In this document: positions 3,705-61,921 of the stretch, one piece after another | Numbering within the stretch: position 1 is the first letter of the stretch | How the letters are laid out: every line of letters starts with the position of its first letter | Origin: an uncultured Sulfurovum sp. | GTDB taxonomy: Bacteria > Campylobacterota > Campylobacteria > Campylobacterales > Sulfurovaceae | Direction of reading: 5' to 3' | NCBI GenBank assembly: GCA_902727935.1 | Contig: CACVAX010000059.1 | Coordinates: 62,001-126,000 of the forward strand | Length of the DNA stretch: 64,000 nucleotides | Translations under genes and position numbers: made by a program | Notes under the pieces: model-generated | The model's input: only the letters and a program-made list of their open reading frames with translations | The model's database searches: none | What the model was told of the DNA's origin: nothing

Positions 3705-6700
3705 TTACCAATCTATTTTAGAGTTTTTTTCTCCATTAGCTTGATTGTCAATAATGTTTCCTGTTTTTCCAATACCTGAGAGCTGTGAAGCATCTTGATT
3801 ACTACAGCTAACAGTGTATTTTGGGTAGCCCATGTTTGCAGGATTGTCATCATAAAGTAAAGAAGTATCAGGGCTAATTAATACAGAAACTTTTTGATTG
3901 ACACTAGCACAGCTATTAAAAGTTCCTTGAACCGATTGATTTCGACCAGATACAAAGCTAATATTGTTATCTGGTGAAACGCTAAGAATTGTTGGATTAC
4001 TGGATGTTAATGTCTGTACCATACCATCGGTATTGGTATTATGGCTTGTGGAGATATACCAACCATCTGTTACTCTTGAAATACCTGTTGTATCGGTATG
4101 TTTTGTTAGATTGCTCTCTTCACAATATGCAATTTTTGCATTACAAAAAATATCAATATTTAGAGGTGTACTGATGATTGGATTGCTGTTAAAATAGACT
4201 TTTGGATAGTTCAGTTTATCAGGAGAGACCCTTGTAAAATAAAAGTTTCTTAGCGTATTGTCTAAGTCTTGGCTTCCCACTGGAAAAAAGTTTGGAGCGA
4301 TTTTTCCCTCTGCTGTAGAGTTTGAAGCGATGGAATTGACTTCTAAGCTATCGAAGTTTATTTGCACAGGATTAATGGCTAACGATAAGTGCTTTTGTAT
4401 GTTGTAGCGTAATTCTAAAAAGCTTGTTCCATTATTTTCATTGAGAAATCTACTCGCCGTAATATTTAAAGGTGAAGCAATATCCTCTATGGTATCAAAG
4501 AGACTAGAATTTAACTCTTCATGGTTAAAATTAGCCATACGAATGATAGGTACATCAACACGATTACGGGTTGGATGTTGGGCTGTCTTAATGGGAATGA
4601 GTCCATCATCGGTAAGCATACTTGCATTTGGAATAAAGACCAAATCTTCAGCCATACAACTTTTGGTAAAATTATTGGTTGTGCCATTGTTTTCATTTTT
4701 AGCTGTGATTGACCCCATAAATTGTAATGAGACATTATGCTCATTTTTTGTAACATCAGACATGTAAATAAAATCATTATGCCCACTGTTTGGTAGGTTA
4801 TTCATGCTAAAGTCAAGCTCAAATGCATAAGGATAAAAAGACAAATTGATATCGCTTATGGATTCAATATTACAACCAGAAGAGCTGTTGGGATGCGTTG
4901 AAATATCAGAGCTGTTCATGTCACATTGCTGTTTATTTCTATCGACGCTTGTCCAAGTACTGTCTTTAAAGTGCAATCGATATTTACCCACATTATCGTG
5001 ATGAAAGTTTAAGTTATTAAATGTACCTTCTACAAAATTAGTGTTAATACTCACATTGGCATCATCAGCACATGCCATAGAAGAAGCAAAGGTTAATGCA
5101 CCTGTAAAGTTTGCATTATAGCCTTTAGAAGCCGTCTGATTATGATTAGGATATTGTGTTGCAATGACACTTAGATTATAATCATACCCAGCTGCAAGGC
5201 GTAAAGGGTTGGGTAGGGCATTGGTATTTTCCTTTCGAATAGCATTTCCATCGGCAATACTGACATAAAAACTTTTAGGACGAATGGCAAAATTATCGTG
5301 AGCATCATCTAAACGGCTGTGGCTACAAGCACTGGGTAGATTAAGACAATCAGCTTGAATAATATTACCAGCCACATCAACACCATAGCTTACTCTAAAC
5401 CTTGCATCTTTGGTAGCAGGAAGCGTTGCTAGGTCATTGATGGGTTGGGTAATGTCAATACGAGAAGTGGAAACCGTGTCTAAAATATGAAAACTGTAGT
5501 TATAAATAGAGCTATTATTCTCCATGTCCATTAAATCAATTTTGACAGTGACATTACTCACATTTTGTTCAGCTGAAAAATCTTCTTGATAAAAAACCAA
5601 AGAGTAATTAAAGTCACGACCAACAACTTGGGTATACCAAGCATTACGCTCATCTGACATAATAGCGAAGCCTCCACTATTGGTACGCTCAATGTTAAAT
5701 TTTCCTCTTAGTGCATCTGAACCAAACTGAACCATGTAGTCTTCTACCTCTCCATCATTAGCATCTTGGGTGGCAGTTAGATTGGCTGTTGAACTGTATC
5801 TAAAACGTAAATAGGTATCAGTATTACTTGTTAGACCATTGGGTACATTAATTGAAATGGTATGTATTCCAGCTGTTAATGCCATGGCTGTTACTATTTT
5901 TTCACCCACATCTTCAAAGTCACCATCGATATTGTAGTCAATCCAAACATTTAGATAGCCCGTTTTAGAGACTTTAACGTTGAGGTTATGGATGCTATTA
6001 AGGGCTAAATATGTTCCATTTAAGTCACTTCCATCGGCTAAAGTTACCCCATCTTCATCATCCACCCCATCAAGGTCATCTCCATCGGCATTGGTAGTAT
6101 TGAAAGTATAAACATCATGGTCAATGTTATCTCCCATAAAAATGTCATTGGCGATGTTATGTTTGGCTGTTCCATAAGTGGCAGGAGCATCCCCATAATC
6201 ATTGAAAACCAAAGCAGCATTGACACAGTTTGCACCATCATTAAAGGTGGCAGATTGTGAATTAGAAACCAAGTTTTTATCGCCTGTGGCTACATTAAAT
6301 TCAAAAAAGCCATTACCCTTACTGTCATTGGCAAAAAAACGACCATTTTTATCAGAAAAAGAGGAGTCAAATTGGTAGCCATTATGGTCTGAACCTATTT
6401 GGGTAACAGTTCCATCTCTTACGTCTATTTTCGTTAGTTTTCCATTGCTATCGACACCGTATAAAAAAGTATTATCAGCAATAGCATCATTCACATTTTT
6501 GTAAAATGAAAAGTCTTGAATTGAAACTTTTTGGGAAAGTGTTATTTCGCTTACAGATTTATCCGAAAGCTTTATTTTATAAAGCTCTTTTTGTTTGCTT
6601 TTTCGTCCTGTCACATAATAATAGCCACCTCCAATAGCCCCAGCATAGAGCTGTTTACTGTTAAAGCGACTAGGTAAGCCATGGATTGTTCCTAAATGCG

Positions 6701-8771
6701 TAACTTCTGCTCCTCGACTAAGTTGCACCAGTTCTTTATGATAGAGTCCATAAATGTAATTGTCATCAGGATTATAGGCTGTGGCATTGTAAAGTTCCGT
6801 TGCTCCTAATGTCTCCACGACTTCAAAATTAAAAGGATTTTGGGTGGTATCTATTTTATGTAACCACATTTTGCCATTTGCTCCTGTGTTTCGGTTGGTA
6901 CTACTTGAAATGTACATGCTATTATCACAAGTAAATGGGTCACTATCCACATAACACCCACAATCTCTGCTTGTCCCATCTATGTTTTTGTCATTGCTTG
7001 TATTTTGGTAAAGATTAGCAACTTGAATCGCACTCATTTGACCTTCAAAAATATAAAACTCATCATAATAGCCAGAGAGTGTGGTCATACTGAAGTCATT
7101 ATGAATGGCTTTAATTCCTCCTGTATATGCATGTGAACCTTTTTCAATGCCATTGATGTATAGTTTCATTCCTTGTGTTCCAAAAGTAAGGGCAACATGT
7201 ACCCATTGGGTATCTAAATCCCCTCCATCACTGTTAGTAAAAAAAACCTCTTGGGTATCAATAACATTGCCATCCAAATAAACTTTGAGGCTTCCTTGAT
7301 GTGCGTCGCCACCCACACGAATAACTTCTACTTTAAATGCTCCTTTTTGAAACATCCATGAGTTTGAAGACCATATATTATGATGGTCGTAAAGTAGCAT
7401 TGAAATTGTTCCATTGTTAAGTTCATAAGCTGTATTATGAGGGATAGTAACGGTACCTGTATAGCCATTTAATGAAGAACACATATATGACTTTCCATCA
7501 TTTTGTATGACCGTTGGACTGGCACTTAAGGCATGGTTTTTAAGCTGAGAATGGTCAATTTTCCATTCATCATTACCACAGTCATCAAATCTAAACTCTC
7601 CTACATTTTTAATGCTTGAAGGATTCGTATCATCATTTAAAATAATACCTTTTGAGCTGATGCTACTCGCACTTAGTTTTAAGTTACTAGAAGGATTAAA
7701 AATCACAAGCTTAAACGCTTCATCGGCTTCTACTTTTGTATCACCTTCTATGCCAACAGCTAAGGTTAAGGTGCGTTCTCCTCCTGTAAAAGTATGCGTT
7801 TTTGTATTAATTGTTGTATAGTCATTATCAGAACTTAAGGCTGAATCATCTTGAGTTTTATATTTAAATGATGCACCAGCGATGGCTGCTTGGTCAAGTT
7901 GCAAGCTAAAGTTTAAATCTTTTTGTCCAGCATCACCTTCAACTATGGAATAAGAGGTTAAATCAAAACTTAATTGAGGGTAGCTTCCATCATCATTAAT
8001 AATTTTAGCTTCAGAATCAAAATCAATAATATAGGGACTACCGGAAATAACCATTTTAATTTTTTCATCAGGTTCGAGAACATCATCAGCAATAATAGGC
8101 ACAGATATAATTTTTTCTCTATCTCCTTGATTAAAAGTGACCGAACCCATGGTTGAAACATAGTCTAAACCAGCTGTGGCTGAAGGGTTTGAACCATCTT
8201 GGGTTGTGTAATTAATGCTCAATGGTATAGTCGAGAGGTAATCTTCCGATAAAAAGATTTTAAATTCCATATTGTTATTATCACCAATATCTCCTTCTTG
8301 AACATTAGAGCCTGTAATATCAATTTTAATGCCATCATCATCACTAATATAGACATAAGCACTGCCATCACTCACTTCATAACCAACCTTAGTGTTGCTA
8401 ATATTAACAAAAAAGTACTCTGAAGTTTCAAAATTGGCATCATCTACAATGGGAATTGAAAGGGTTTGACTCATAGCAGAGGCCGTTCGGCTAGGAGCGT
8501 CACATTCTCCATAAAAAGTTAGACTAGAGCTTTTATTGCTATAATCACTTCCTACATGTGCAGAGCCATCTGCTGTGCTGTAGTTCACAATCACTTCATC
8601 ACACCATTCAGCTTCTTCGCTAATATGAATGGTAAATAAGGCTGTTCCAGCATCTTCTTGCACAGTTTGAGCATTTGCGATGCTAATTTGTATGTTTGAG
8701 CCATCAGCATACAAGCATGTTGAAAAGAAGAATAACGATAAAAAGAGGAAGTATCTAAAAATTAAATGCAT
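3705..8771 (-). CDS. Giant secreted multidomain protein (Calx-beta x3, LamG-like, propeller, GEVED, MshQ-like tail)
   Basis: A 1688-residue exported protein with a signal peptide (residues 1-22, ending 'LYADG'). Three Calx-beta domains occupy about 25-382, each with 'EGD' or 'VQED' starts and 'NDDG'-type ends. A concanavalin/LamG-like domain lies at about 395-590 ('TQWVHVALTFGTQGMKLYING'), then a propeller-like region (about 600-865) resembling that of the neighbouring giant gene. A GEVED domain (about 870-1010) contains 'GDFEDVGEK' and 'DANDGEVEDYMVQFG'. The last 670 residues include 'FAIRPKSFYVS', which recalls the DUF6701 tail of MshQ-type proteins. The architecture suggests a calcium-binding, carbohydrate- or surface-binding adhesin or pilus-associated protein, but no enzymatic motif is visible. 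The start is supported by AAGG upstream. A hairpin follows the stop. Confidence 0.85.
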   Translation of the reverse strand: MHLIFRYFLFLSLFFFSTCLYADGSNIQISIANAQTVQEDAGTALFTIHISEEAEWCDEVIVNYSTADGSAHVGSDYSNKSSSLTFYGECDAPSRTASAMSQTLSIPIVDDANFETSEYFFVNISNTKVGYEVSDGSAYVYISDDDGIKIDITGSNVQEGDIGDNNNMEFKIFLSEDYLSTIPLSINYTTQDGSNPSATAGLDYVSTMGSVTFNQGDREKIISVPIIADDVLEPDEKIKMVISGSPYIIDFDSEAKIINDDGSYPQLSFDLTSYSIVEGDAGQKDLNFSLQLDQAAIAGASFKYKTQDDSALSSDNDYTTINTKTHTFTGGERTLTLAVGIEGDTKVEADEAFKLVIFNPSSNLKLSASSISSKGIILNDDTNPSSIKNVGEFRFDDCGNDEWKIDHSQLKNHALSASPTVIQNDGKSYMCSSLNGYTGTVTIPHNTAYELNNGTISMLLYDHHNIWSSNSWMFQKGAFKVEVIRVGGDAHQGSLKVYLDGNVIDTQEVFFTNSDGGDLDTQWVHVALTFGTQGMKLYINGIEKGSHAYTGGIKAIHNDFSMTTLSGYYDEFYIFEGQMSAIQVANLYQNTSNDKNIDGTSRDCGCYVDSDPFTCDNSMYISSSTNRNTGANGKMWLHKIDTTQNPFNFEVVETLGATELYNATAYNPDDNYIYGLYHKELVQLSRGAEVTHLGTIHGLPSRFNSKQLYAGAIGGGYYYVTGRKSKQKELYKIKLSDKSVSEITLSQKVSIQDFSFYKNVNDAIADNTFLYGVDSNGKLTKIDVRDGTVTQIGSDHNGYQFDSSFSDKNGRFFANDSKGNGFFEFNVATGDKNLVSNSQSATFNDGANCVNAALVFNDYGDAPATYGTAKHNIANDIFMGDNIDHDVYTFNTTNADGDDLDGVDDEDGVTLADGSDLNGTYLALNSIHNLNVKVSKTGYLNVWIDYNIDGDFEDVGEKIVTAMALTAGIHTISINVPNGLTSNTDTYLRFRYSSTANLTATQDANDGEVEDYMVQFGSDALRGKFNIERTNSGGFAIMSDERNAWYTQVVGRDFNYSLVFYQEDFSAEQNVSNVTVKIDLMDMENNSSIYNYSFHILDTVSTSRIDITQPINDLATLPATKDARFRVSYGVDVAGNIIQADCLNLPSACSHSRLDDAHDNFAIRPKSFYVSIADGNAIRKENTNALPNPLRLAAGYDYNLSVIATQYPNHNQTASKGYNANFTGALTFASSMACADDANVSINTNFVEGTFNNLNFHHDNVGKYRLHFKDSTWTSVDRNKQQCDMNSSDISTHPNSSSGCNIESISDINLSFYPYAFELDFSMNNLPNSGHNDFIYMSDVTKNEHNVSLQFMGSITAKNENNGTTNNFTKSCMAEDLVFIPNASMLTDDGLIPIKTAQHPTRNRVDVPIIRMANFNHEELNSSLFDTIEDIASPLNITASRFLNENNGTSFLELRYNIQKHLSLAINPVQINFDSLEVNSIASNSTAEGKIAPNFFPVGSQDLDNTLRNFYFTRVSPDKLNYPKVYFNSNPIISTPLNIDIFCNAKIAYCEESNLTKHTDTTGISRVTDGWYISTSHNTNTDGMVQTLTSSNPTILSVSPDNNISFVSGRNQSVQGTFNSCASVNQKVSVLISPDTSLLYDDNPANMGYPKYTVSCSNQDASQLSGIGKTGNIIDNQANGEKNSKIDW

Positions 8772-32526: not shown

Positions 32527-32966
32527 TCATCTCGGTTAGCTACCCCAACCCCATCCATAAATTTTTCAACATAATCTAAAATCTTAGTCGTCACATGTGG
32601 GATAACTTTACGCCGTTCAAGTAATTTAGGTTTGCTCTCTAAAGTTTGTACAATGGTCGCAGACAAAGGCTTTCGCTCATCGTATAAATAGCTATCGACT
32701 ACTTTTTGTACTTCATCACATTTTAGTTTCTCTTCACTACAAAGTGTTTTAAACCCTTTTTCACGTTCCTCTTCCCAAAAATTTTCAAATTCATCTGCTA
32801 TATTTTCATTTTTTTCAATATGAGGTAAATTCTTGTTAATAAACTTTTCTATGAGTTCCCGTTTGCTTCGTAGCCTAGCGTCTCCATTGATTATGTTGAG
32901 AATTTGCTCTTTTTGTGCCTTTTTATCTTCTTCTTTGGCATCATTATATTTTCCTAAAAGTGTCAA
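32448..32966 (-). pseudogene. hsdR: Type I restriction subunit HsdR, C-terminal fragment
   Basis: This frame (172 aa) holds the C-terminal helical domain of EcoR124I-type HsdR: 'INGDARLRSKRELIEKFINKNLPHI', 'DEFENFWEEEREKGFKTL', 'LLERRKVIPHVTTKILDYVEKFMDGV'. It is out of frame with the 702-residue part upstream. Joining 'FVQAFRA' to 'ILTLLGKYNDAKEE' leaves out roughly 80-100 residues that intact relatives carry between these points (estimate from memory of the family). It could only be translated separately from TTG 32966, which overlaps the upstream stop. The last residues overlap thiE and may be read-through past the original end. Confidence 0.82.
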
Positions 32967-35071
32967 AATAACGCTCTAAAGGCTTGAACAAAGGCTAATT
33001 CATCTTCTTCATCATTCAGTTCATCAACACTCTCTACGCTTGGAGCAATGGCTAAAAGTTTCTCTTTATAGGCTTCATTAAACTCTGTTAGGTACTCTTC
33101 ATAAGGTTGCATCAAAATAATCTCTTTGGCATCCACATTTGAAAAGAGCGCTATGGCATCGTCTGTATTCTTTTTTAGGTTTCTAAAACAGACAATGTTT
33201 CCTTGTGACTTTTGTTCATTCAGGATTCGGTTGGTTCGTGAAAAGGCTTGTATGAGTCCGTGGTATTTTAAGTTTTTGTCCACATAAAGGGTATTGAGTG
33301 ACTTGGCATCGAAGCCTGTTAAGAACATGTTGACCACCAGTAAAATGTCTATCTCTCTATTTTTAACCCGTTTGCTTAGTTCATTGTAATAGTTGTAAAA
33401 ACTTTTAGCATCTTTTGTATTGTATTTCGTTCCAAACATCATATTATAATCACCAATGTACTCATCTAACTTATCACGGCTATGCAAATTTTGAGGAGAT
33501 AAAAGTTCTTTTTTGCTCGGATTCGATGGCTTTAGCCTCGTATTGTTCGGGAGTGAACTCTCCGATTCCGAAAAGTCTATGATGCCATTAGCATCTTTGT
33601 CTTCTTCATTGGCTGTGTAAGAGATGTAGTCTACTATTTTGTTCACTCTCTCTTGACTTTCGAGTAGCTCTTTGCTATCTATCTCTTCAACGTCTATGTC
33701 GATGTTTGTTTTGGAATCTTCTTTGGCTTTATAACGACCCACGTATTCCACTGAAAATTTTAAAACATTATCATCAGCAATGGCATCGGTAATGACGTAT
33801 TTATGTAAAGCATCATCAAACAGTTCTTTAGTGGTACGTTTCCCAAGTTTATTACCCACGGCATTTTGGGCAAAGATGGGTGTGCCTGTAAAGCCTATCA
33901 TTTGGTTTTGAGTAAAAAAGTTGTTAATGGCTAAATGCGTCTCCCCAAATTGAGAACGATGACACTCATCAAATATAAAAACAATGGATTCATCACGTAA
34001 CTTCTCCATTTGGTTTAAGTATTGCTTTTTACTAATGGCTGTGTTTAGTTTTTGTATTGTGGTAACAATGAGCTTGGTATCGTCGCTAAACTGTGCAACC
34101 AATGCCTTGGTGTTATCCGTTCCATCAACCGAACCATCGGAAAAACTGTTAAACTCTTTGGTGGTCTGAAAGTCCAAATCTTTTCGGTCAACCACAAACA
34201 CCACTTTATGCACCTGAGGCAGTTTCATAAGTATTTGAGCTGTTTTAAAAGAGGTCAGTGTTTTTCCTGAACCTGTGGTATGCCAAATGTACCCATTTTT
34301 ATCGCTGTTCTCCACACGGTCGATAATGGCTTCAGTCGCATGAAATTGATAAGGACGCAAGACCATAAGTATTTTGGGTACTTCGGCTAAAACGGTGTAT
34401 TTGGTTATCATCTTGGCAATATGACAACGTTCTAAAAAAGCATCGGTAAATTGCTCTAGGTTCGTAATATTTTTGTTCTCTTTGTCTGCCCAAAAAAAGG
34501 TCTGTTTAAAACTTTGCTTTTTGTTGTTGGCGTAGTATTTAGTATTAACTCCGTTACTGATGACAAAAATTTGCACGTAATTAAACAAGGCAGAGTTTGA
34601 ACCATAAGAGTGACGTTGATAACGGTTAATCTGATTAAACGCCTCTTTTAGTTCCAGTCCACGCCGTTTGAGTTCTATCTGCACTAAAGGCAAACCGTTT
34701 ATGAGTAGGGTTACGTCGTATCGGTTTTTATACGTTCCTTCTATGGTGACTTGGCTGGTCACTTGAAAAAGGTTTTGACACCAGTGTTCAGAGTTTAAAA
34801 ATTCAATGTATTTGGTGCTTCCATCATCAGCAGTAAGTGAAAGTTTGTCTCTTAGTTGTTTGGCTTTTTCAAACACAGAGCCTTTGTTTAAGTGGTTGAG
34901 TACGCGTTTAAACTCTGTGTCGCTTAGTTGGGTGTTGTTGTGAATTTCAAGTTGGGTTTTTAGGTTGGCTTCGAGGGCTTTGTCATCTTTGATGGTGACT
35001 TGTTGGTACTTTAGATTTTCAAGTTGTGCTATGAGGTTTGCTTCAAGTGTGGCTTCGCTTTGTGTTCCCAT
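32963..35071 (-). pseudogene. hsdR: Type I restriction subunit HsdR, N-terminal and motor part (interrupted)
   Basis: This 702-residue part has the nuclease site (Asp119, 'QIELK' 131-135, PD-ExK type), the translocase Walker A 'TTGSGKT' 265-271, 'DECH' 368-371 and 'GFTGTPIF', and the RecA-2 motifs ending 'VNMFLTGFDAKSLNTLYVDKNLKYHGLIQAFSRTNRI'. It therefore looks catalytically complete up to a premature TGA after 'FVQAFRALF', where the family continues for another 250 or more residues. The C-terminal fragment lies in another frame immediately downstream. Type I HsdR needs its C-terminal helical domain to assemble with HsdM2S, so restriction is probably lost. It follows the RelB-like gene in the hsd operon. 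Confidence 0.85.
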
Positions 35072-35128
35072 TTTATCTCCCCCTAGATGTTTTAAAGATT
35101 ATAGCATATCACATAAATATCTATCTTC

Positions 35129-35416
35129 TCATAGCTCATTTAAAAAGTCTCGTGCTTTTGTTGCTTTTTTTTCACCACGTTCTAGCCGTGCTACATCTTC
35201 TAAAGCAAGTTGCAACTTTTGAGTTAAGTCATCCACCTCATTGTTCGGTAATTTAACCTCAAAAGGTAAACCTTTATGACTGACAATCATCTTGGTAAAA
35301 ATATTAACAGCTTCTGAAAAATTCATACCCATTTGGTCTAAAATTTTTTTTGCATCGTGCAGCGACTCTTTGTCTATGCGTAAAGAAGTTTGAATTTTAG
35401 GCTCTTTTATTTGCAT
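35129..35416 (-). CDS. RelB/DinJ-family antitoxin without a visible toxin
   Basis: The start is set at ATG 35416 (95 aa) behind AAAAGGA. The N-terminus 'IQTSLRIDKESLHDAKKILDQMGMNFSEAVNIFTKMIV' matches the DinJ/RelB ribbon-helix-helix pattern ('R.d..l...a..il..lGl....a...f...i'). The C-terminal half is acidic and helical ('DDLTQKLQLALEDVARLERGEKK'), as in toxin-binding tails. No RelE/YafQ-type frame lies on either side; hsdS and hsdR flank it directly. It could be a degenerate TA remnant, or a regulator of the hsd operon. DNA-binding and autoregulation are family properties, not shown here. Confidence 0.75.
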   Translation of the reverse strand: MQIKEPKIQTSLRIDKESLHDAKKILDQMGMNFSEAVNIFTKMIVSHKGLPFEVKLPNNEVDDLTQKLQLALEDVARLERGEKKATKARDFLNEL

Positions 35417-35484
35417 ACTTGATCCTTTTGTATTTACTAATGACGAGTATATCATTTTTTCATTGTATATACATTGAAAACCTT

Positions 35485-36600
35485 TTACACAAACATCTGC
35501 TGTAACAACCCTTTTTTAAACGCTTTACTTGCTTCTATTTGTTTTGAGGCTTGTTCTATTTTTTGGTCGATGGAAGAGAGGAAATTGGCTATTTTTATTT
35601 GTTCTTCTAGGGATGGTAAATTTATTTTAATACTTTCAATAGTACTTTTTGAAAGACTTGGTACACCAGAAGCTTCATTATATTTTTTCCAATTAATTCT
35701 TTGAAAAATTAAATATACAAATTTTGGAATAGATTGATTAAATGAATGAGTATAAAAAAGTGTATCTACTGTCCAAAACTTACCAACAATATATCTTGGT
35801 TTATCAATAGTACCTTTTCTCCCTATACACACACTTTCACCATCATATAAATATTCATTTACCGAAGTCATATATCCACCTGTTCCATATACAGGTATGT
35901 TACCACTAGACAAATGTTTATAATCTTTACCACTACCTATTTTAAAAATTTCTTCTAATTTCTTCTCAACCCAATCCTCATACTCCCCACCATCATCACC
36001 CTTAAACCGAATCTCCTGAGAAAAAATCTTTTGCATCACTCCTTTTTTATAAGCTTCTAGCAGGGTTTTCTTTTTTGTTTGTTGTTCTATTTTTTTGTCT
36101 ACTGCTGTTAGGAAGGTGGCTATTTTTTGTTGTTCGAGTTTTTGAGGTATAAAAAATGGAATTTCAGACATATATTTCCAATCAGCTCTTGGCATTTTAG
36201 AACCACTTGAAATATTAGCTATTTGATTAAATTTATATGTTTGTACTAGTTGAAATAAATAATTGTTTACAACTTTTTTACCATCTAAAACCCAAATTTC
36301 ACTAGAACAAACTCCATCAAAATTAACTAAAGAATACTTTTTTAAATAAGGTCTTAATTTTCCAAATAACACTTGATTTTTTTTGAATATATTTTTTGTA
36401 CTTTCTTGCTTATTTGAATATGTAAATCCTAATAATTCACCTGTGCCTTGAGAGATATGTTCTAATTCAATACATTTCATATTTTCATTATTAGTTTTTG
36501 GATTAAACTTTTTTGATGATATTTCAATTAAATTGTTTAATTCACTATTTTCCCACTCCCCACTAAACTCCCCAAACCTCAATTTCGGTACATTAAGCAT
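35485..36600 (-). CDS. hsdS: Type I restriction-modification specificity subunit
   Basis: The start is ATG 36600 (371 aa), where CGGAGG stands 6-7 bases upstream; an ATG nine codons earlier lies inside a palindromic repeat and is less likely. Two target-recognition domains are separated by a conserved helix ('LEQQKIATFLTAVDKKIEQQTKKKTLLEAYKKGVMQKIF'), and the protein ends with a matching helix ('LEEQIKIANFLSSIDQKIEQ' onwards). HsdS chooses the bipartite DNA site read by the HsdM2S methylase. Both helices are intact, so the methylase should be functional. The DNA has an A8 run in the first TRD (36377-36384), too short to assert phase variation. Confidence 0.93.
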   Translation of the reverse strand: MLNVPKLRFGEFSGEWENSELNNLIEISSKKFNPKTNNENMKCIELEHISQGTGELLGFTYSNKQESTKNIFKKNQVLFGKLRPYLKKYSLVNFDGVCSSEIWVLDGKKVVNNYLFQLVQTYKFNQIANISSGSKMPRADWKYMSEIPFFIPQKLEQQKIATFLTAVDKKIEQQTKKKTLLEAYKKGVMQKIFSQEIRFKGDDGGEYEDWVEKKLEEIFKIGSGKDYKHLSSGNIPVYGTGGYMTSVNEYLYDGESVCIGRKGTIDKPRYIVGKFWTVDTLFYTHSFNQSIPKFVYLIFQRINWKKYNEASGVPSLSKSTIESIKINLPSLEEQIKIANFLSSIDQKIEQASKQIEASKAFKKGLLQQMFV

Positions 36601-36611
36601 AAAGAGCCTCC

Positions 36612-36633
36612 GTAGGTTCGATTTCATCGAACA
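36612..36633. repeat. Dispersed palindrome, copy 3 (hsdS leader)
   Basis: Core GTTCGAT-TTC-ATCGAAC with the same GTAG/A flanks as copies 1 and 2, differing only in the loop. Its CCTACGGAGG end on the minus strand supplies the Shine-Dalgarno region of hsdS. It forms a 23-bp near-perfect inverted pair with copy 4. Confidence 0.75.
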
Positions 36634-36668
36634 CTTGAATCTTACTTTTTTGTGTTTGTATCATATTT

Positions 36669-36690
36669 TGTTCGATTTCATCGAACCTAC
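36669..36690. repeat. Dispersed palindrome, copy 4 (inverted, hsdM-hsdS gap)
   Basis: Same unit in opposite orientation to copy 3, 35 bases away. With copy 3 it can form either two small hairpins or one long hairpin whose 23-bp arms mismatch only in the central three bases. It lies 13 bases past the hsdM stop. Confidence 0.75.
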
Positions 36691-36702
36691 GGTTGCCATT
36701 CA

Positions 36703-38265
36703 TCAAAACGGAGCCTTTATACCCAGCTCATCACAAAAACCAGCGATGACTTTATTGGTTTCTTTCATCTCTTTTTCCAAAGCTTTCAACTCAGCCGAAA
36801 CAGCATTCAAATCCACAGCTTCTTCCTCTTCAAAAGTATCCACATAACGTGGGATGTTTAGGTTATAGTCATTTTCAGCTATCTCTTTAAGTGTGGCTAA
36901 ATGAGCGTACTTATCTTCAGCTTTTCGTTCTTGGTAGGTGCTAATTATTTTCTCTATGTCTTTAGCACGTAGATGATTTTGATTTTTAACCTTTTCAAAA
37001 TGAGCCGATGCATCCACAAACAACACCGAATCACTTTCTTCTCGGCATTTTTTAAAAACCAAGATACACGTAGGAATGCTCGTACCGTAAAAGATGTTCG
37101 CAGGTAAACCAATAACAGCGTCCAAGTAGTTTCTGTCTTCGATGAGATAACGGCGAATATGCCCTTCGGATGCACCACGAAACAACACACCATGAGGTAA
37201 GACAATCGCCATGGTTCCATTGTCGTCTAAATGGTGAATCATATGTTGCACAAATGCAAAGTCAGCTTTACTTTTTGGGGCGAGTTTACCGTACTGAGAA
37301 AATCGGTCATCGCTTAGGTGTAGCGTGTTCGCCGACCAATGAGCCGAAAAAGGAGGGTTAGCCACAATGGCTTCAAAACGTTCTTCAATGTGTTGAGGAT
37401 GTTCTAAAGTGTCTTCTTGTTTTATGTCAAACTTTCGGTAATGAACGTCATGCATTATCATGTTCATTCGGGCAAGGTTGTAGGTGGTTCGGTTGAGTTC
37501 TTGACCGTAAAAAGTGCTTACCTCTTCAACTTCTTTGGAAACACGTAAAAGTAATGAGCCTGAACCACACGTTGGATCGTAGACCGATTTGAGTTTAGAT
37601 TTATTGGTCGTGACAATTTTGGCTAAAATCTTAGAAACTTCCTGAGGGGTGTAAAACTCCCCAGCTTTCTTTCCTGCACCTGCTGCAAACTGACCGATGA
37701 GGTATTCGTACGCATCCCCCAAAACATCACGGTCATGGTTTTTAAGTTCAAAGTTTATTTGGTCTAAATGAGCGAGTACTTTAGAGATCAGCGTGTTCTT
37801 AGCTTCTTCGGTTCGTCCAAGTTTGGTACTTGTTAAATCAAGGTCTTCAAAAAGGTGTTCAAAATCATCTTCACTTTCATGACCCATGGTACTTTGCTCA
37901 ATGCTGTTGAGTATTTCTGTTAGGTCTTCTAGTATGAAGTTGTCTGTATCACCATTACCACGTTCTGCCACGGCTGAGAAGAGTTCAGAAGGTTTTAGAA
38001 AATACCCAAGCTGTTCAATAGAGTCTTCCTTAATGGCTTGAAGATACTCTTGACCCTCTTCGCTTTTTTCATCAATGTCATGGTAAACAAGCTTGTCTTC
38101 TTCTAGTAAGTCATTGGCGTAGTCTTGCATTTTTTCTGAAAGGTATTTGTAGAAAATAAACCCTAAGATGTAGTCGCGAAACTCATCAGCATCCATTTTT
38201 CCCCTAAGTGTGTTGGCAATGTTCCACAGTTGTTGTTCTAGTATTTTCTTTTGTTCTTCACCCAT
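36703..38265 (-). CDS. hsdM: Type I restriction-modification DNA methylase subunit
   Basis: A 520-residue N6-adenine methyltransferase of the EcoR124I-like group. The SAM-binding motif I is 'DPTCGSGS' (230-237) and the catalytic motif IV is 'NPPF' (303-306). The N-terminal helical region ('LWNIANTLRGKMDADEFRDYILGFIFYKYLSEK') and the C-terminal acidic segment are complete. HsdM pairs with HsdS to methylate the recognition site. It is the first gene of the island; the order hsdM-hsdS-antitoxin-hsdR is normal apart from the antitoxin. It should remain active although hsdR is broken. Confidence 0.95.
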   Translation of the reverse strand: MGEEQKKILEQQLWNIANTLRGKMDADEFRDYILGFIFYKYLSEKMQDYANDLLEEDKLVYHDIDEKSEEGQEYLQAIKEDSIEQLGYFLKPSELFSAVAERGNGDTDNFILEDLTEILNSIEQSTMGHESEDDFEHLFEDLDLTSTKLGRTEEAKNTLISKVLAHLDQINFELKNHDRDVLGDAYEYLIGQFAAGAGKKAGEFYTPQEVSKILAKIVTTNKSKLKSVYDPTCGSGSLLLRVSKEVEEVSTFYGQELNRTTYNLARMNMIMHDVHYRKFDIKQEDTLEHPQHIEERFEAIVANPPFSAHWSANTLHLSDDRFSQYGKLAPKSKADFAFVQHMIHHLDDNGTMAIVLPHGVLFRGASEGHIRRYLIEDRNYLDAVIGLPANIFYGTSIPTCILVFKKCREESDSVLFVDASAHFEKVKNQNHLRAKDIEKIISTYQERKAEDKYAHLATLKEIAENDYNLNIPRYVDTFEEEEAVDLNAVSAELKALEKEMKETNKVIAGFCDELGIKAPF

Positions 38266-56244: not shown

Positions 56245-56390
56245 GAATTAAGTTCTCCTTTTGGGTTAATGACTATATTTTACTATAAGTTTTCTTGGTG
56301 TAGAAATAGTGTAAAGAGAAAAGTTATTTTTTAAAGAGTTAAGGTAGAATCCAAATTGAAACAACATTTTAAAATAAATGAGGAGTTTAG

Positions 56391-56738
56391 ATGAAAGAGA
56401 ATACACCTTTAGAAGTACAGCGTTATGCCGATGTACAAGAGCATATAGGTAATGGAAATCCTACGATTATTGCTTTTGGAATGAGTCATTGTTATTCTTG
56501 TTTGGCTATGTCAAAATTGTTTGCAGAAGTTTTAAAAGAACATCCTGAGTATCAAATATATTCGGTAGATGGTCAAAAAGAACGTTTAATATTACGAGAC
56601 AAATATAAGCTCAAACTCATGCCAGTGCAACTTTTTTTTGATGCAAAGGGAAATGAAGTTTTCAGACATGAAGGTGCTTATAAAAAGGCTGTTTTAGAGA
56701 TTATCCTAAAAAAATATGGCTTTGGAAATTACGCTTAG
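56391..56738 (+). CDS. Thioredoxin-like protein upstream of modA
   Basis: A 115-residue thioredoxin fold with 'AFGMSHCYSCLAMSKLF' (redox Cys pair CYSC) and cis-Pro in 'KLKLMPVQLFFDAKG'. There is no signal peptide. GAGGAG precedes the start strongly. It ends 21 bases before modA, so it may share a transcript with the molybdate operon, but a TATAAT in the gap suggests a separate start for modA. Confidence 0.82.
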   Translation: MKENTPLEVQRYADVQEHIGNGNPTIIAFGMSHCYSCLAMSKLFAEVLKEHPEYQIYSVDGQKERLILRDKYKLKLMPVQLFFDAKGNEVFRHEGAYKKAVLEIILKKYGFGNYA

Positions 56739-56748
56739 GGATATTTGG

Positions 56749-56754
56749 TATAAT
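56749..56754 (+). promoter_or_regulatory. -10 box almost touching the modA start
   Basis: TATAAT ends five bases before the modA ATG, and no ribosome site is visible. If used, the transcript would start at or next to the ATG, that is, be leaderless. It may instead be chance in AT-rich DNA. Confidence 0.35.
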
Positions 56755-56759
56755 TAGTC

Positions 56760-57518
56760 ATGAAATTTAAATTACTCCTTTTAACACTTCTTTCAAGTTT
56801 TATAATGGCTGAGACCATTACCGTGGCTGTGGCTGCCAATGTTTCGTATGCCATTAACGATTTAAAAAAAGAGTTCAATAAACTCTATCCGAACATAAAC
56901 GTACAAGTGATACTGGGTGGAACAGGTAAGCTTGTGGCACAAATAAAACACAAAGCACCTTACCATATACTCATGGCTGCCAATATGATGTATCCTAAAA
57001 AACTCTACGAAAGTGGAGATGCAGTAACCAGACCTTTGGTGTATGCACAAGGTTCGTTAGCGTATCTTTCAACTAAAAACCTAGACCTTTCAAAAGGTAT
57101 GGAACTTCTTTTAAGTGACAAAGTTAAAAAAATAGCCATTGCCAATCCTAAAACAGCACCTTATGGTGTGGCCAGTGTTAAAGCGTTAAAAAATGCCAAA
57201 GTATATGATGCCACAAAGTCTAAATTTGTCTATGGTGAGTCTATTTCTCAAACGGTTATTTATGCCACAAAAGCCACAGATATTGGACTAATAGCAAAGT
57301 CTGCACTTTACAGCCCTAAGATGGCTCATTTCAAAAAAGATGTTCATTGGAAAGAAGTAGATGCTAAATTTTATACACCTATTGACCAAGGGATTGTACT
57401 TTTGAAACATGGAGAAAAATCATTGGGAGCTTCTGCTTTTTATGCGTTTATTATGTCTAAGAGGGCTAAAGAGGTTTTTGAAGATTTTGGCTATAGTGTT
57501 CCTGCTCAATCTAATTAA
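56760..57518 (+). CDS. modA: Molybdate ABC transporter substrate-binding protein
   Basis: A 252-residue periplasmic binding protein with signal peptide 'KFKLLLLTLLSSFIMA'. 'VAVAANVSYAINDLKKEFNK', 'VILGGTGKLVAQIKHKAPYHILMAAN' and 'IANPKTAPYGVASVKALKN' are the standard ModA oxyanion-binding regions. It captures molybdate or tungstate for ModBC. modB lies 2.1 kb further on, beyond an inserted toxin-antitoxin pair and membrane gene, so the operon is interrupted. Molybdenum feeds formate dehydrogenases and related enzymes common in this lineage. Confidence 0.94.
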   Translation: MKFKLLLLTLLSSFIMAETITVAVAANVSYAINDLKKEFNKLYPNINVQVILGGTGKLVAQIKHKAPYHILMAANMMYPKKLYESGDAVTRPLVYAQGSLAYLSTKNLDLSKGMELLLSDKVKKIAIANPKTAPYGVASVKALKNAKVYDATKSKFVYGESISQTVIYATKATDIGLIAKSALYSPKMAHFKKDVHWKEVDAKFYTPIDQGIVLLKHGEKSLGASAFYAFIMSKRAKEVFEDFGYSVPAQSN

Positions 57519-57533
57519 ATAATAAAGATATGC

Positions 57534-57539
57534 TACAAT
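57534..57539 (+). promoter_or_regulatory. -10 candidate for the toxin-antitoxin pair
   Basis: TACAAT 25 bases before the antitoxin start, in the 46-base gap after modA. It would give the pair its own promoter within the mod operon. Confidence 0.3.
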
Positions 57540-57564
57540 TAATATAAAATATAAGGATTTCACT

Positions 57565-57810
57565 ATGAGAATTACACTTGATGTTCCAAATGAACAATTG
57601 TTTGAAAAAATATTGTGGTTTTTAAATCGTTTTAAAAATGATGGTGTTCAAATAATGACCATTCAAAGACAAAGTAAAAAGACTGATACAAATATTTCTA
57701 AATTAAAACAGTTTGAAAAACTTGTTAATGCTAAAAGTAAGAATACTGTTAAGATAAGTGAACAGACTATTTTGAATCCTCATGATGAGTTGAGTAATGA
57801 TATATCTTGA
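57565..57810 (+). CDS. Putative antitoxin of the PIN-toxin pair
   Basis: An 81-residue protein that starts 'MRITLDVPNEQLFEKILWFLNRF' and ends in a polar, disordered-looking tail ('SEQTILNPHDELSNDIS'). AAGGATTTC precedes the start. Its stop lies 14 bases inside the PIN-domain gene, the usual antitoxin-first arrangement. The N-terminal part may form a beta-helix DNA-binding region, but I cannot assign a family. Antitoxin role is inferred from position and size. Confidence 0.72.
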   Translation: MRITLDVPNEQLFEKILWFLNRFKNDGVQIMTIQRQSKKTDTNISKLKQFEKLVNAKSKNTVKISEQTILNPHDELSNDIS

Positions 57811-58207
57811 TACTAATGTTTTGATTTATGCAACACTGTCTAGTGTTGATACAGCAAGTCAACAAGAGAAAGCTATTGAGATATTAAAAGAGTTGATAGA
57901 TAATGATGAACTATTACTTTCAAATTTGAATTTATTAGAATACACTTTTGTTATGAACAAGGCTCAAGAAGATAGTAATAAAATTGAAAATGCTTTAGAA
58001 CTGTTCCAAACTTTTGTTCAGGATGAAACAAAAGGGTTTAATCTCGACTTGATGAAAATGTTAAATAATGATTATGCTTATAAGAACTCTTTTGATCTGT
58101 ATCATGTAGCATTTGCTAAACATAATCAATGTCAAAAAATTTTTACTTTTGATAAAGGGTTTAAGAAGTTTATTGATATCTGTGAGATAGAGATTGATAT
58201 TTTATAA
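57797..58207 (+). CDS. PIN-domain toxin (VapC-like)
   Basis: A 136-residue PIN nuclease with 'MIYLDTNVLIYAT' (Asp5), 'LLSNLNLLEYTFV' (Glu), 'NSFDLYHVAFAKH' (Asp) and 'IFTFDKGFKKF' (Asp), the four acidic residues that hold magnesium. Such toxins cut tRNA or rRNA and stop growth unless bound by the antitoxin, whose gene overlaps its start. It lies inside the mod operon between modA and modB, with low GC content. The pair appears intact. Confidence 0.85.
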   Translation: MIYLDTNVLIYATLSSVDTASQQEKAIEILKELIDNDELLLSNLNLLEYTFVMNKAQEDSNKIENALELFQTFVQDETKGFNLDLMKMLNNDYAYKNSFDLYHVAFAKHNQCQKIFTFDKGFKKFIDICEIEIDIL

Positions 58208-58235
58208 CTTGAAATTTTTAGGATATTAAACGTAA

Positions 58236-59585
58236 ATGGTTTTATTTTCTACATCTAGGTCATTAAAAAATGAGGAAATTTCACTCTTAGCTATTATTGA
58301 GGTTATTTTTGCAGTTGGAGTTTATTGGGGAATTGCTATTTATTATAATATATATTGGCATATTATATTAAGTATATCCATTGTTCCTTTTCTTTTATTA
58401 CAATCAAAACAATCAATTGAACTTTCATTAGATAAATTTCACAGTTATAGCCTCGCTTCTAATAAAACACTATTTTTTAGTTTATTTATACTTTTACCAT
58501 TATTCTCTTTAGGTAATATTTTTTATTTTAAATTAGACTATATATTATTATGGATTTTTTCAATTATTATTGTGTGTTTTTATATAATTTTAATTTTTGC
58601 TATATTAGTTTTTGGGCTATCAAATTTAAAAATAGAAAGTAGAATAGAACTTGCTTCGACGATGAGTAGTTTATATTATTCTTTTATTAAAATAATTCTA
58701 GATCTTCTTGATTCTATTAGAGCAAAAGTAGTAGGAACTATTTTAAACTTACGTTATGGATATATGAATATTACATCAAATTGGTTTAGACGGACATTTC
58801 TTATGGATATGGTTTCCGTACCAGAAATTATTACAGGTATAGAAAATGATACAAAATCTGAGAGTAGAACTTTTAAAGTATCTAAAACATGGCATTATAT
58901 AGTAGTAAAAAAAGAAGTGTACTATGAAAGTTTAAAAGAATATGATATTAAGATGATGTGGGCATTTAAAATTTCTTCTATTATTCAATTAATAGGAATT
59001 TATTTCATTACTTTAGTTTATCGCATAAGTATTAAGTCAACATTTTGGTTTTACTATCCATTAATTTTAGTTATTAAAAAGCCAAATTTAACAACCAGTC
59101 AAGATATAGGAGTGTTTTTATCACGACAATATGAAACTGTACTTGCAAAGATAGGACTATTAGTCTCAATAGGGTCTTTAAGTATGTTTATTTTTAAGAA
59201 TTTAAAGGTTTTTGAGTGGCTTCCTATTGAAAGTTCTCCTATTAAACCTTTTCTCTTATTATTTTATATTGATTATTCAGCACTTGAAAATTGGAAAATT
59301 ATTCATTTAGTGTTATCCCTTTTAATAGTGGTGTTGTATTTATATTCAGACTGGATTAAAAAGCCTTATACTTTAAATAATAAACCTCTTAAAAAAGATA
59401 TTAATGTAAAAACAATTATTTATCTTAATAACATAAAGAATTTGTTATTAAATTTATACCTTATATGTGCATTTATATATGTTAATAGTTTTTTTAAAAT
59501 TTTGGAATATAATTATGTACCAAGTTTTTTAAATGGTTTTTTTGTAAAATTATTGGAGCTAGTAAGATATGTACCATTTAATTAA
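58236..59585 (+). CDS. Polytopic membrane protein of unknown function, inserted in the mod operon
   Basis: A 449-residue protein, markedly more AT-rich than its neighbours. Several hydrophobic segments lie in the first 130 residues ('LAIIEVIFAVGVYWGIAIYY', 'TLFFSLFILLPLFSLGNIFYF', 'YILLWIFSIIIVCFYIILIFAILVFG'), then a polar central part with 'LRYGYMNITSNWFRRTFLMDMVSVPEIITGIEND', and further helices to the end. The 'NW-R...D....PEI--GIE' phrase recalls uncharacterised bacterial membrane proteins, but I cannot name a family. It follows the PIN toxin by 28 bases and precedes modB by 32 bases. It may be cargo carried with the toxin-antitoxin pair. Confidence 0.7.
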   Translation: MVLFSTSRSLKNEEISLLAIIEVIFAVGVYWGIAIYYNIYWHIILSISIVPFLLLQSKQSIELSLDKFHSYSLASNKTLFFSLFILLPLFSLGNIFYFKLDYILLWIFSIIIVCFYIILIFAILVFGLSNLKIESRIELASTMSSLYYSFIKIILDLLDSIRAKVVGTILNLRYGYMNITSNWFRRTFLMDMVSVPEIITGIENDTKSESRTFKVSKTWHYIVVKKEVYYESLKEYDIKMMWAFKISSIIQLIGIYFITLVYRISIKSTFWFYYPLILVIKKPNLTTSQDIGVFLSRQYETVLAKIGLLVSIGSLSMFIFKNLKVFEWLPIESSPIKPFLLLFYIDYSALENWKIIHLVLSLLIVVLYLYSDWIKKPYTLNNKPLKKDINVKTIIYLNNIKNLLLNLYLICAFIYVNSFFKILEYNYVPSFLNGFFVKLLELVRYVPFN

Positions 59586-59617
59586 TATTATTTTAGAGTT
59601 AGAGAAAGATAGATAAC

Positions 59618-60274
59618 ATGTTAGAAACCCTAAAAACCCTAGACCTAACTCCATTCTTACTATCTTTCAAACTAGCAGGAATAACAACTATCATCCTATT
59701 TCTTCTAAGTTTACCACTAGCATGGTACTTATCTCAAACAAAGTCAAAAGTAAAACCATTTATTGAAGCCATAACAGCTTTACCGATTGTGTTACCACCT
59801 TCTGTTTTAGGTTTTTATATATTAGTGGTTTTTGCAGAGGTAGATTTAAACTTTACATTTACAGGCTTGGTGATTGCTTCTTGTTTTTACTCTTTGCCTT
59901 TTATGGTACAGCCTTTACAAGGTGGGTTTGAGAGTTTGAATAAAAATATGTTGGAAGCTTCGTACATAGCAGGTAAAAGTAAAATAATCACACTTTTTAG
60001 AGTGGCTTTACCCAATAGTAAACCAGCATTACTTACGGCACTTATTATTACGTTTGCTCATACGGTAGGAGAGTTTGGGGTGATATTGATGATAGGTGGG
60101 AGTATCCCAAATGAAACAAAGGTAGCCTCTATTGCTATTTATGAAATGGTGGAGATTATGGACTATAGTACAGCACATATTTACTCAGCTATTATGCTAC
60201 TCATAAGTTTTGTGGTGCTTGTTTCTGTTTATTTTTTTAACCATACACAAAAACGTATAGGTGGGTTTAACTAA
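59618..60274 (+). CDS. modB: Molybdate ABC transporter permease
   Basis: A 218-residue inner-membrane permease with about five helices. The coupling loop 'EASYIAGKSKIITLFRVALPNSKPALLTA' holds the EAA motif that contacts ModC, and 'ALPIVLPPSVLGFYILVVF' is typical. ModB carries molybdate from ModA across the inner membrane. Its stop overlaps the modC start by one base (TAATG). It is separated from modA by the inserted module, so its transcription may depend on read-through or another promoter. Confidence 0.94.
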   Translation: MLETLKTLDLTPFLLSFKLAGITTIILFLLSLPLAWYLSQTKSKVKPFIEAITALPIVLPPSVLGFYILVVFAEVDLNFTFTGLVIASCFYSLPFMVQPLQGGFESLNKNMLEASYIAGKSKIITLFRVALPNSKPALLTALIITFAHTVGEFGVILMIGGSIPNETKVASIAIYEMVEIMDYSTAHIYSAIMLLISFVVLVSVYFFNHTQKRIGGFN

Positions 60275-61089
60275 TGCTACGTATTGACATAAAGAAACAA
60301 CTTCATGGTTCAAATGGGGTAATGAATTTAAATATTAATTGTTCTATTAAAGAAGGAGAGTTTGTAGCTATCTCTGGGAAAAGTGGTTCAGGGAAGACAA
60401 CTTTTTTACGCATATTAGCAGGGCTTGAAGAAGCAGAAGGAACTATGAATATTAGTGAAGAAGTTTGGTTGAAGGGTAAGAAAGCTTTAGCTCCACAAAA
60501 AAGAAACATAGGATTTGTTTTTCAAGACTATGCTTTGTTTGAAAACATGACGGTAGAAGAGAATTTACTATTTGTAAAAGAGGATAAAAAATTAGCAAAC
60601 TATCTTTTGGAGGTGACAGAGCTTAGTAAGTTAAAAACAAAATTACCAAAAAGCCTTTCTGGTGGTCAAAAACAACGTGTTGCACTTTGTAGAGCCATGA
60701 TGAATCGACCACAACTTTTATTGTTAGATGAACCCCTTTCAGCACTTGATTCTGCGATGCGTTATAAATTACAAGATGAGATATTGCAATTACATAAAGA
60801 GTTTGGAACAACCACAATTATGGTGAGTCATGATGCCAGTGAAATTTATCGTTTGGCTTCTCGTGTGCTAGTTCTTGAAAATGGAAAGATAGTTGATGAT
60901 GGAACAGCAAAAGAGGTGATGATGGGAAAAAAAAATCTTTTAGAAGGAGAACTTTTAGAATTGCGAGAGGATAATGTGGCTACTGTATTAGTAGGACAGC
61001 AACTCATAGAAGTAGCTTTTTCTAAAGAAGAAACAGAAAAACTACAAATTGGAGATTTTGTTAGTTTAGTAAGTCATAAAAATCTTTAG
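60274..61089 (+). CDS. modC: Molybdate ABC transporter ATPase
   Basis: A 271-residue ABC ATPase with Walker A 'GKSGSGKTT', Q-loop 'GFVFQDYALFENMTVEENLLF', signature 'SLSGGQKQRVALCRAM' and Walker B 'LLLLDEPLSALD'. The short C-terminal part (about 220-270) looks like one reduced TOBE-type domain, which makes the protein shorter than E. coli ModC (352). It powers molybdate import with ModB. Its last 29 bases overlap the convergent RluA-type gene. Confidence 0.93.
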   Translation: MLRIDIKKQLHGSNGVMNLNINCSIKEGEFVAISGKSGSGKTTFLRILAGLEEAEGTMNISEEVWLKGKKALAPQKRNIGFVFQDYALFENMTVEENLLFVKEDKKLANYLLEVTELSKLKTKLPKSLSGGQKQRVALCRAMMNRPQLLLLDEPLSALDSAMRYKLQDEILQLHKEFGTTTIMVSHDASEIYRLASRVLVLENGKIVDDGTAKEVMMGKKNLLEGELLELREDNVATVLVGQQLIEVAFSKEETEKLQIGDFVSLVSHKNL

Positions 61090-61921
61090 GAGCATCTACT
61101 TCAAACGTAATATTTTTTTTCTTTGTTGGGTGAAAAATGGTTAGTTTTGTGGCGTGTAATCCCATTCTGTCACCTTTTTTGTAATTTTTTCCATAACGTT
61201 CATCACCTAAAATATAGTTACCCATCCAGCTCATGTGGGCTCTAATTTGATGTTGTCTACCTGTTTCAATGTGAACTTCAAGTAATGATTTATTATTTTT
61301 AGACTCTTTTAGCTGATAGTGCGTGAGTGCAGGTTTTGCTTTTGGGTCTTTTCCCACATGCATTTTATATTCTTTGTCATCTAAGCGTAAAGGTTGATTG
61401 ATGCTTCCTTTTTCTTCTTTAGGTGTTCCCTTGACAATGGCTAGATAAATTTTTTCTGCATCACTCCATTTACCCATGGTACTTTCTCGAAGTTCTCGCG
61501 AGGTAGCAAAAAGTAAAATACCAGAAGTTTCACGGTCAAGACGATGTACGGGGATGAGGTCTGGACTTTTTCTGTTTTTAGTGAGTTGTTTTCGTAAAAT
61601 AGCCAAAGCATGTTCTTTATTTTCCTGTTTATTTCCAACAGAAAGCAGACCAGCTGGTTTGTTAATGGCTATGAGTTCATTGTCTTGATAGATGATTTCT
61701 AAACTATTGAGAGGTGCTAATGATTTTTTTTGAACCACACCCACTTCTACAATATCATTAATATTTAGAGGAAAATCAAACTTAGTGGTACTTTTACCAT
61801 TAACAGCGATAGAATTATTTTTAAGACGTTCTTTGACTTTCTTTTTTGACCAAGTATGAAGTACGGAAAATAAAAAATTTAGAAGTTTGTCATCTTTTTG
61901 TACGGTGAATCGTTCTATCAT
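61061..61921 (-). CDS. RluA-family pseudouridine synthase
   Basis: A 286-residue enzyme with an N-terminal S4 RNA-binding domain (1-60) and a catalytic domain with Asp129 in 'PVHRLDRETSGILLFA'. 'IYQDNELIAINKPAGLLSVG' and 'LLEVHIETGRQHQIRAHM' complete the RluA signature. It isomerises uridine in rRNA or tRNA; the RluA/RluC/RluD-type target cannot be told by eye. It is convergent with modC and overlaps its end by 29 bases. Confidence 0.93.
   Translation of the reverse strand: MIERFTVQKDDKLLNFLFSVLHTWSKKKVKERLKNNSIAVNGKSTTKFDFPLNINDIVEVGVVQKKSLAPLNSLEIIYQDNELIAINKPAGLLSVGNKQENKEHALAILRKQLTKNRKSPDLIPVHRLDRETSGILLFATSRELRESTMGKWSDAEKIYLAIVKGTPKEEKGSINQPLRLDDKEYKMHVGKDPKAKPALTHYQLKESKNNKSLLEVHIETGRQHQIRAHMSWMGNYILGDERYGKNYKKGDRMGLHATKLTIFHPTKKKNITFEVDAPKDFYDLLN

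Follow-up and report, generated by a model that had tools for sequence, protein, structure and literature searches.

An antitoxin/PIN gene pair and an undescribed membrane protein gene between modA and modB of an uncultured Sulfurovum

Genes and features of the interrupted molybdate locus

The window, by which we mean the whole stretch of 64,000 nucleotides that was analysed, carries a molybdate transport locus in which modA is separated from modB and modC. The gene order from left to right is a thioredoxin-like gene (trx), modA, an 81-aa open reading frame (ORF), a PIN-domain gene, the gene of a 449-aa membrane protein (MP449), modB, modC and a convergent pseudouridine-synthase-like gene (rluD). 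The features of the locus are as follows.

56760-57518, + strand: modA, molybdate-binding protein, left flank of the cassette (NCBIfam TIGR01256, 2.6e-44)
57534-57539, + strand: hexamer of a putative extended -10 promoter of the cassette (TGCTACAAT), identified by eye
57565-57810, + strand: antitoxin-like ORF, 81 aa, overlapping the PIN start by 14 nt; its homologues lie before PIN homologues
57797-58207, + strand: PIN-domain (VapC-like) toxin, 136 aa (PF01850, 5.7e-14), with D5, E48, D100 and D119
58236-59585, + strand: MP449, 449-aa membrane protein of an undescribed family, with approximately eight hydrophobic segments by hydropathy and with homologues elsewhere
59618-60274, + strand: modB, permease, right flank of the cassette (NCBIfam TIGR02141, 3.5e-59, exceeding the cut-off)
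60274-61089, + strand: modC, ATPase (ABC_tran PF00005, 8.6e-34)

The first-pass annotation had described modA as split from modB and modC by an antitoxin/PIN pair and a 449-aa membrane protein, and the coordinates, the gaps and the shared strand were all confirmed. The spacing was 46 bp between modA and the antitoxin ORF, 28 bp between the PIN gene and MP449, and 32 bp between MP449 and modB. The three cassette ORFs were intact and co-directional with modA, modB and modC. No terminator-like site was found within 56250-61150, the Rfam search gave no match, and the promoter scan of the locus performed no better than shuffles; the candidate promoter at 57534-57539 is considered weak, as it was missing from the output of the consensus scan. 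The cassette thus has the orientation of the mod operon and is probably transcribed with it. A single modA was present in the window's genome (60 contigs).

The GC content of the cassette block was 24%, compared with 34-36% for modA, modB and modC. MP449, which had been called AT-rich, and the PIN gene had the two lowest values (23.3% and 26.5%, respectively) among the 60 window ORFs longer than 100 aa. The composition of the cassette is foreign. In agreement with the earlier reading, the window showed neither a transposase-like ORF nor a target duplication. It also showed no integrase gene, and no direct repeats flanked the cassette beyond low-complexity matches. The upstream trx-modA and downstream modC-rluD segments were syntenic in two relatives (G173 and G154) and a single long contig spans the window; the insertion is therefore real and not an assembly join.

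The PIN protein scored 53.2 bits against PF01850 (cut-off 23.6), and the alignment showed the four acidic active-site residues to be present. It is a predicted RNase, which would be neutralised by the product of the small ORF ahead of it. The 81-aa ORF had no significant match in Pfam or NCBIfam, including to known DNA-binding antitoxin domains, and so the label VapBC-like is safer than VapBC; its sole match in PADLOC was PDC-S18, at 15.9 bits. As in type II VapBC systems, a small upstream ORF overlaps a PIN gene with acidic catalytic residues, an arrangement typical of an antitoxin and its toxin. Unlike in those systems, the antitoxin lacks a recognised antitoxin domain and a third, membrane protein gene follows. 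No close solved structure was found for the pair. On these sequence features, the pair is likely to be an active toxin-antitoxin (TA) module.

Homologues of the 81-aa ORF (47-59% identity) preceded PIN homologues in G171, G172, G095 and G152. The copy in G152 (L102 2573-3077) is close, but frame-broken, with the PIN shortened to 92 aa, and has apparently decayed. Homologous pairs were also located at other co-directional junctions, before gatB in G171 and after a prmC-like gene in G093. A more distant pair in G148 (L105 2803-3448) lies between a periplasmic binding protein gene and ABC ATPase/permease genes, and splits another ABC transporter operon in the same way as modA and modB are split here. 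Insertion within operons therefore seems to be habitual for such pairs.

The modA-modB junction in related genomes

To place the insertion, 175 genomes of the family were compared, and the gap was measured in those with modA and modB on one contig and strand. Many of these genomes are incomplete MAGs, and contig ends truncate the loci of G142, G171 and G172. The comparison, which the first-pass annotation had proposed, gave three gap classes, namely 370-418 bp (48 genomes), 120 bp or less (47 genomes) and 1.3-6.3 kb (7 genomes). In the loci read, the gap of approximately 400 bp holds a gene of 128-137 aa, the G169 member of which is a TOBE-domain (PF03459), mop-like molybdate-binding gene. Such a gene of approximately 130 aa, or no gene at all, is the usual state of the junction. 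The TOBE/mop gene is the ancestral occupant of the gap and is absent from the window's genome, where no mop orthologue was found.

The long gap state was concentrated in the window's own clade, in which the junction is a hotspot. The slot was occupied in 7/9 informative genomes of the clade, compared with 2/95 elsewhere (Fisher p = 6e-8; 5e-6 when the count is restricted to fully linked contigs), although these values overstate the evidence because phylogeny was ignored and three of the slots contain homologous AlbA_2 genes. The two occupied slots outside the clade include that of G144, where a 451-aa gene between modA and modB was otherwise set aside, as it belongs to a different, diverged mod cluster. 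A tree of modB and modC implies five or more changes of cargo state. In all seven clade slots the cargo was co-directional with modBC, and in G142, G171 and G172 only a few bases separated the preceding stop codon from the start of modB. The modB-modC junction, examined as a control, was uninterrupted in the genus loci with both genes, with modC directly after modB. The cargo identified in the same slot of relatives was as follows.

G173: DUF4143 ATPase (PADLOC PDC-S01), Schlafen AlbA_2 gene, Zn-ribbon protein and a DUF1016_N remnant
G172: AlbA_2 gene and a PDC-S32 match
G169: mop, a ParE-like pair, AlbA_2 gene, AAA gene (part of it masked in the record) and an HNH gene matching PDC-M62B
G150: mop, PDC-S01, PDC-M62A and PDC-M62B
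G154: an antitoxin/PIN pair unrelated to that of the window, together with a 192-aa protein
G142: mop at the end of one contig; at the end of another, the C-terminus of a YhcG nuclease ahead of modB

The PIN protein of G154 shared 18% identity with that of the window. The AlbA_2 genes of G172, G173 and G169 were homologous (60-73% identity), and hence the cargo of these three slots is not wholly independent. As close relatives carry different TA or candidate defence genes in the gap, the gap is a recurrent landing site. The PADLOC candidates PDC-M62A/B and PDC-S01 share the insertion site with the window cassette, but their genes are unrelated to it, and the window cassette fitted no PADLOC system model.

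Short palindromic repeats (GGTGTAGTCAGGGGACTACACC and similar) were noted directly upstream of modB in G169, G173 and G150 (L059, L040 and L046). They were rejected as insertion marks, since the window has no such repeats. The relocated modA genes of G167, G155 and G163 adjoin fmt-like, parA/parB-like and ATP synthase genes (L063, L064, L066 and L069 correspond to G167, G155, G159 and G163).

Chromosomal hotspots without mobile elements have been described, with double recombination at the flanking core genes proposed (Oliveira et al. 2017, PMC5635113), and core defence hotspots have been reported in P. aeruginosa (PMC10250203). The modA-modB slot shares with these the fixed core flanks, the fast turnover of foreign or defence cargo and the lack of a visible integrase; as in a hotspot of horizontal transfer or defence, the core flanks stay the same while the cargo differs between related genomes, and occupancy in the clade exceeds that in the rest of the family and at the uninterrupted modB-modC junction. 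It differs in being small (1.3-6.3 kb) and inside a compact transport operon, and in that its cargo is uniformly co-directional and packed against modB. The only hint of recombination at the flanks comes from G150, where a divergent modA (37-38% identity) lies beside the cargo. The best fit is nevertheless entry by this route: new cassettes would probably come in, and replace older ones, through recombination in the conserved mod genes on both sides, and the window cassette would have displaced the ancestral TOBE/mop gene in this recurrent slot. Cassettes may persist when they are co-directional and terminator-free, so that modBC would still be transcribed by read-through. Our literature search found nothing on the modA-modB junction.

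The MP449 family and its gene neighbourhoods

MP449 had no match in Pfam, NCBIfam or PADLOC, and none among solved structures when searched with its profile. An AlphaFold model built from a six-sequence alignment was unusable (pLDDT 49). Homologues were identified within the family in G071, G171, G056 and G060, with a shorter one in G012, and within the order in G537, with a fragment in G544. One further homologue, on a Rhizobium etli conjugative plasmid, was confirmed by profile comparison (98.1%, E 1.4e-13). Scans of genome contigs returned Sulfurovaceae loci only, and no homologue was found in viral contigs, phages or most plasmid searches. The MP449 family is rare, being present in 6/175 family genomes and 2/397 genomes of a phylum sample. 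The homologues can be aligned over their full length with 23-36% identity, and MP449 is therefore a real gene. They share the N-terminal motif LAIVET...PFLLL...KS and a YRxSIKSTxWFYxPL segment, and have 6-10 hydrophobic segments by hydropathy.

The first-pass annotation had suggested a search for the protein beside TA or defence genes elsewhere. The neighbourhoods found were as follows.

Window (G000): antitoxin/PIN pair adjoins MP449
G071: Fic gene overlaps the homologue
G537: Gp49/HigB-like gene 81 nt downstream
G060: Unstab_antitox gene approximately 515 nt away, on the opposite strand
G012: Unstab_antitox gene 74 nt upstream; HEPN/MNT pair before, MazG after
G056: trypsin-like domain fused to the homologue; NB-ARC/TPR genes nearby
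G544: trypsin gene directly upstream of the fragment
R. etli plasmid: AAA and HNH genes approximately 2-3 kb upstream; lipid-desaturase-domain gene before the homologue
G171: homologue after a permease-like 298-aa gene; YafQ-like toxin approximately 2.7 kb away

A TA component was present within approximately 600 nt of the family gene in 5/9 loci, with a trypsin-like partner in two others. With 6-7 PIN genes in 2.4 Mb, in our judgement the rate of chance adjacency should be low, although this concerns nine loci only. In G537 (L080 5941-9102), the homologue and the Gp49/HigB-like gene directly follow rsmH and an ftsL-like gene.

Trypsin-linked conflict systems (PMC7159879) and nuclease-protease pairs (PMC12799240) have been described. 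MP449 relatives resemble these through fusion to a trypsin-like protease in G056, which also has NB-ARC/TPR neighbours, and through a position directly after such a protease gene in G544. They differ in the window, where there is no protease and the partner is a PIN toxin. The literature searched contained no description of a membrane effector from this family. A link of the cassette to phage defence may be drawn by analogy with the other slot occupants and with the trypsin-linked systems.

Origin and role of the cassette

The reading we prefer, with a probability of roughly 0.6, is that a horizontally acquired VapBC-like TA pair and a conflict-associated membrane protein occupy the modA-modB slot, expressed with the Mod system but standing outside it. 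This is close to the small defence or stabilisation island suggested from the window, a suggestion that gains indirect support from the candidate defence or antitoxin/PIN genes in the same slot of relatives, and from the toxins, antitoxins and trypsin-like proteases beside MP449 homologues; the defence part is not matched by any PADLOC system. MP449 would most likely act at the membrane, as partner or effector in a response that arrests growth or aborts infection. Judging from gene neighbourhoods alone, its relatives would serve in a modular fashion with different toxins or proteases elsewhere. More tentatively, and with the balance against it, MP449 may represent the first of a new family of membrane effectors in bacterial conflict systems, which would combine in a modular way with unrelated triggers (PIN, Fic, HigB/Gp49, addiction modules and trypsin-like proteases) and act at the membrane once the trigger has fired.

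The cassette could instead be a neutral passenger, in which a TA pair and an unrelated membrane gene share a relaxed operon junction and have no joint role. The operon of the same clade is indeed falling apart in other ways, with modA relocated away from modBC in seven genomes (G143, G174, G156, G155, G159, G163 and G167), and in G171 and G172 the homologous pairs occupy different junctions, where MP449 is missing. However, all three ORFs are intact, the homologues of MP449 recur beside toxin genes of other families, and the window PIN is undecayed even though the broken G152 copy indicates that decay is possible; we regard this explanation as rather doubtful. MP449 could also be a housekeeping transporter or membrane enzyme that lies beside TA genes by chance, for which its multi-pass topology, the permease-like gene in G171 and the lipid-desaturase-domain gene in R. 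etli could be cited. The very patchy distribution, the low GC in the window, the trypsin-like fusion in G056 and the failure to match any housekeeping family make this unlikely.

The proposal that the cassette ties molybdate uptake to growth control, with the toxin pair sensing or responding to molybdenum limitation through a shared operon, was not upheld. It draws on the co-directional, tightly packed genes and the absence of a terminator, but the cassette is missing from nearly all family genomes, the closest ones hold unrelated genes instead, and close homologues of the PIN pair lie at junctions outside the Mod system. We consider such coupling highly improbable. The two refuting outcomes named by the first-pass annotation, conservation of the block across relatives as a Mod component and assignment of the 449-aa protein to a housekeeping family, were looked for and not observed.

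None of TA pairs, PIN toxins or defence hotspots is new in itself; the novelty lies in a hotspot inside an operon, between modA and modB, and in a membrane protein family that lacks annotation and is consistently accompanied by conflict genes. In this Sulfurovaceae clade, the junction offers a fixed address between two conserved genes at which to look for and collect new cassettes of defence or TA genes, and it indicates that a transport operon tolerates repeated insertion when the cargo is co-directional. The link of the MP449 family to toxins and proteases can be tested.

Elsewhere in the window, type I restriction-modification genes were identified on the - strand at 32963-38265 (HsdR-like, 32966-35071; HsdS-like, 35488-36627; HsdM, 36706-38265), the HsdS-like specificity gene having a low GC content of 29%. 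The - strand also encodes, at 3705-8771, a surface-type protein of 1688 aa that contains Calx-beta, laminin-G-like, DUF6923 and GEVED domains.
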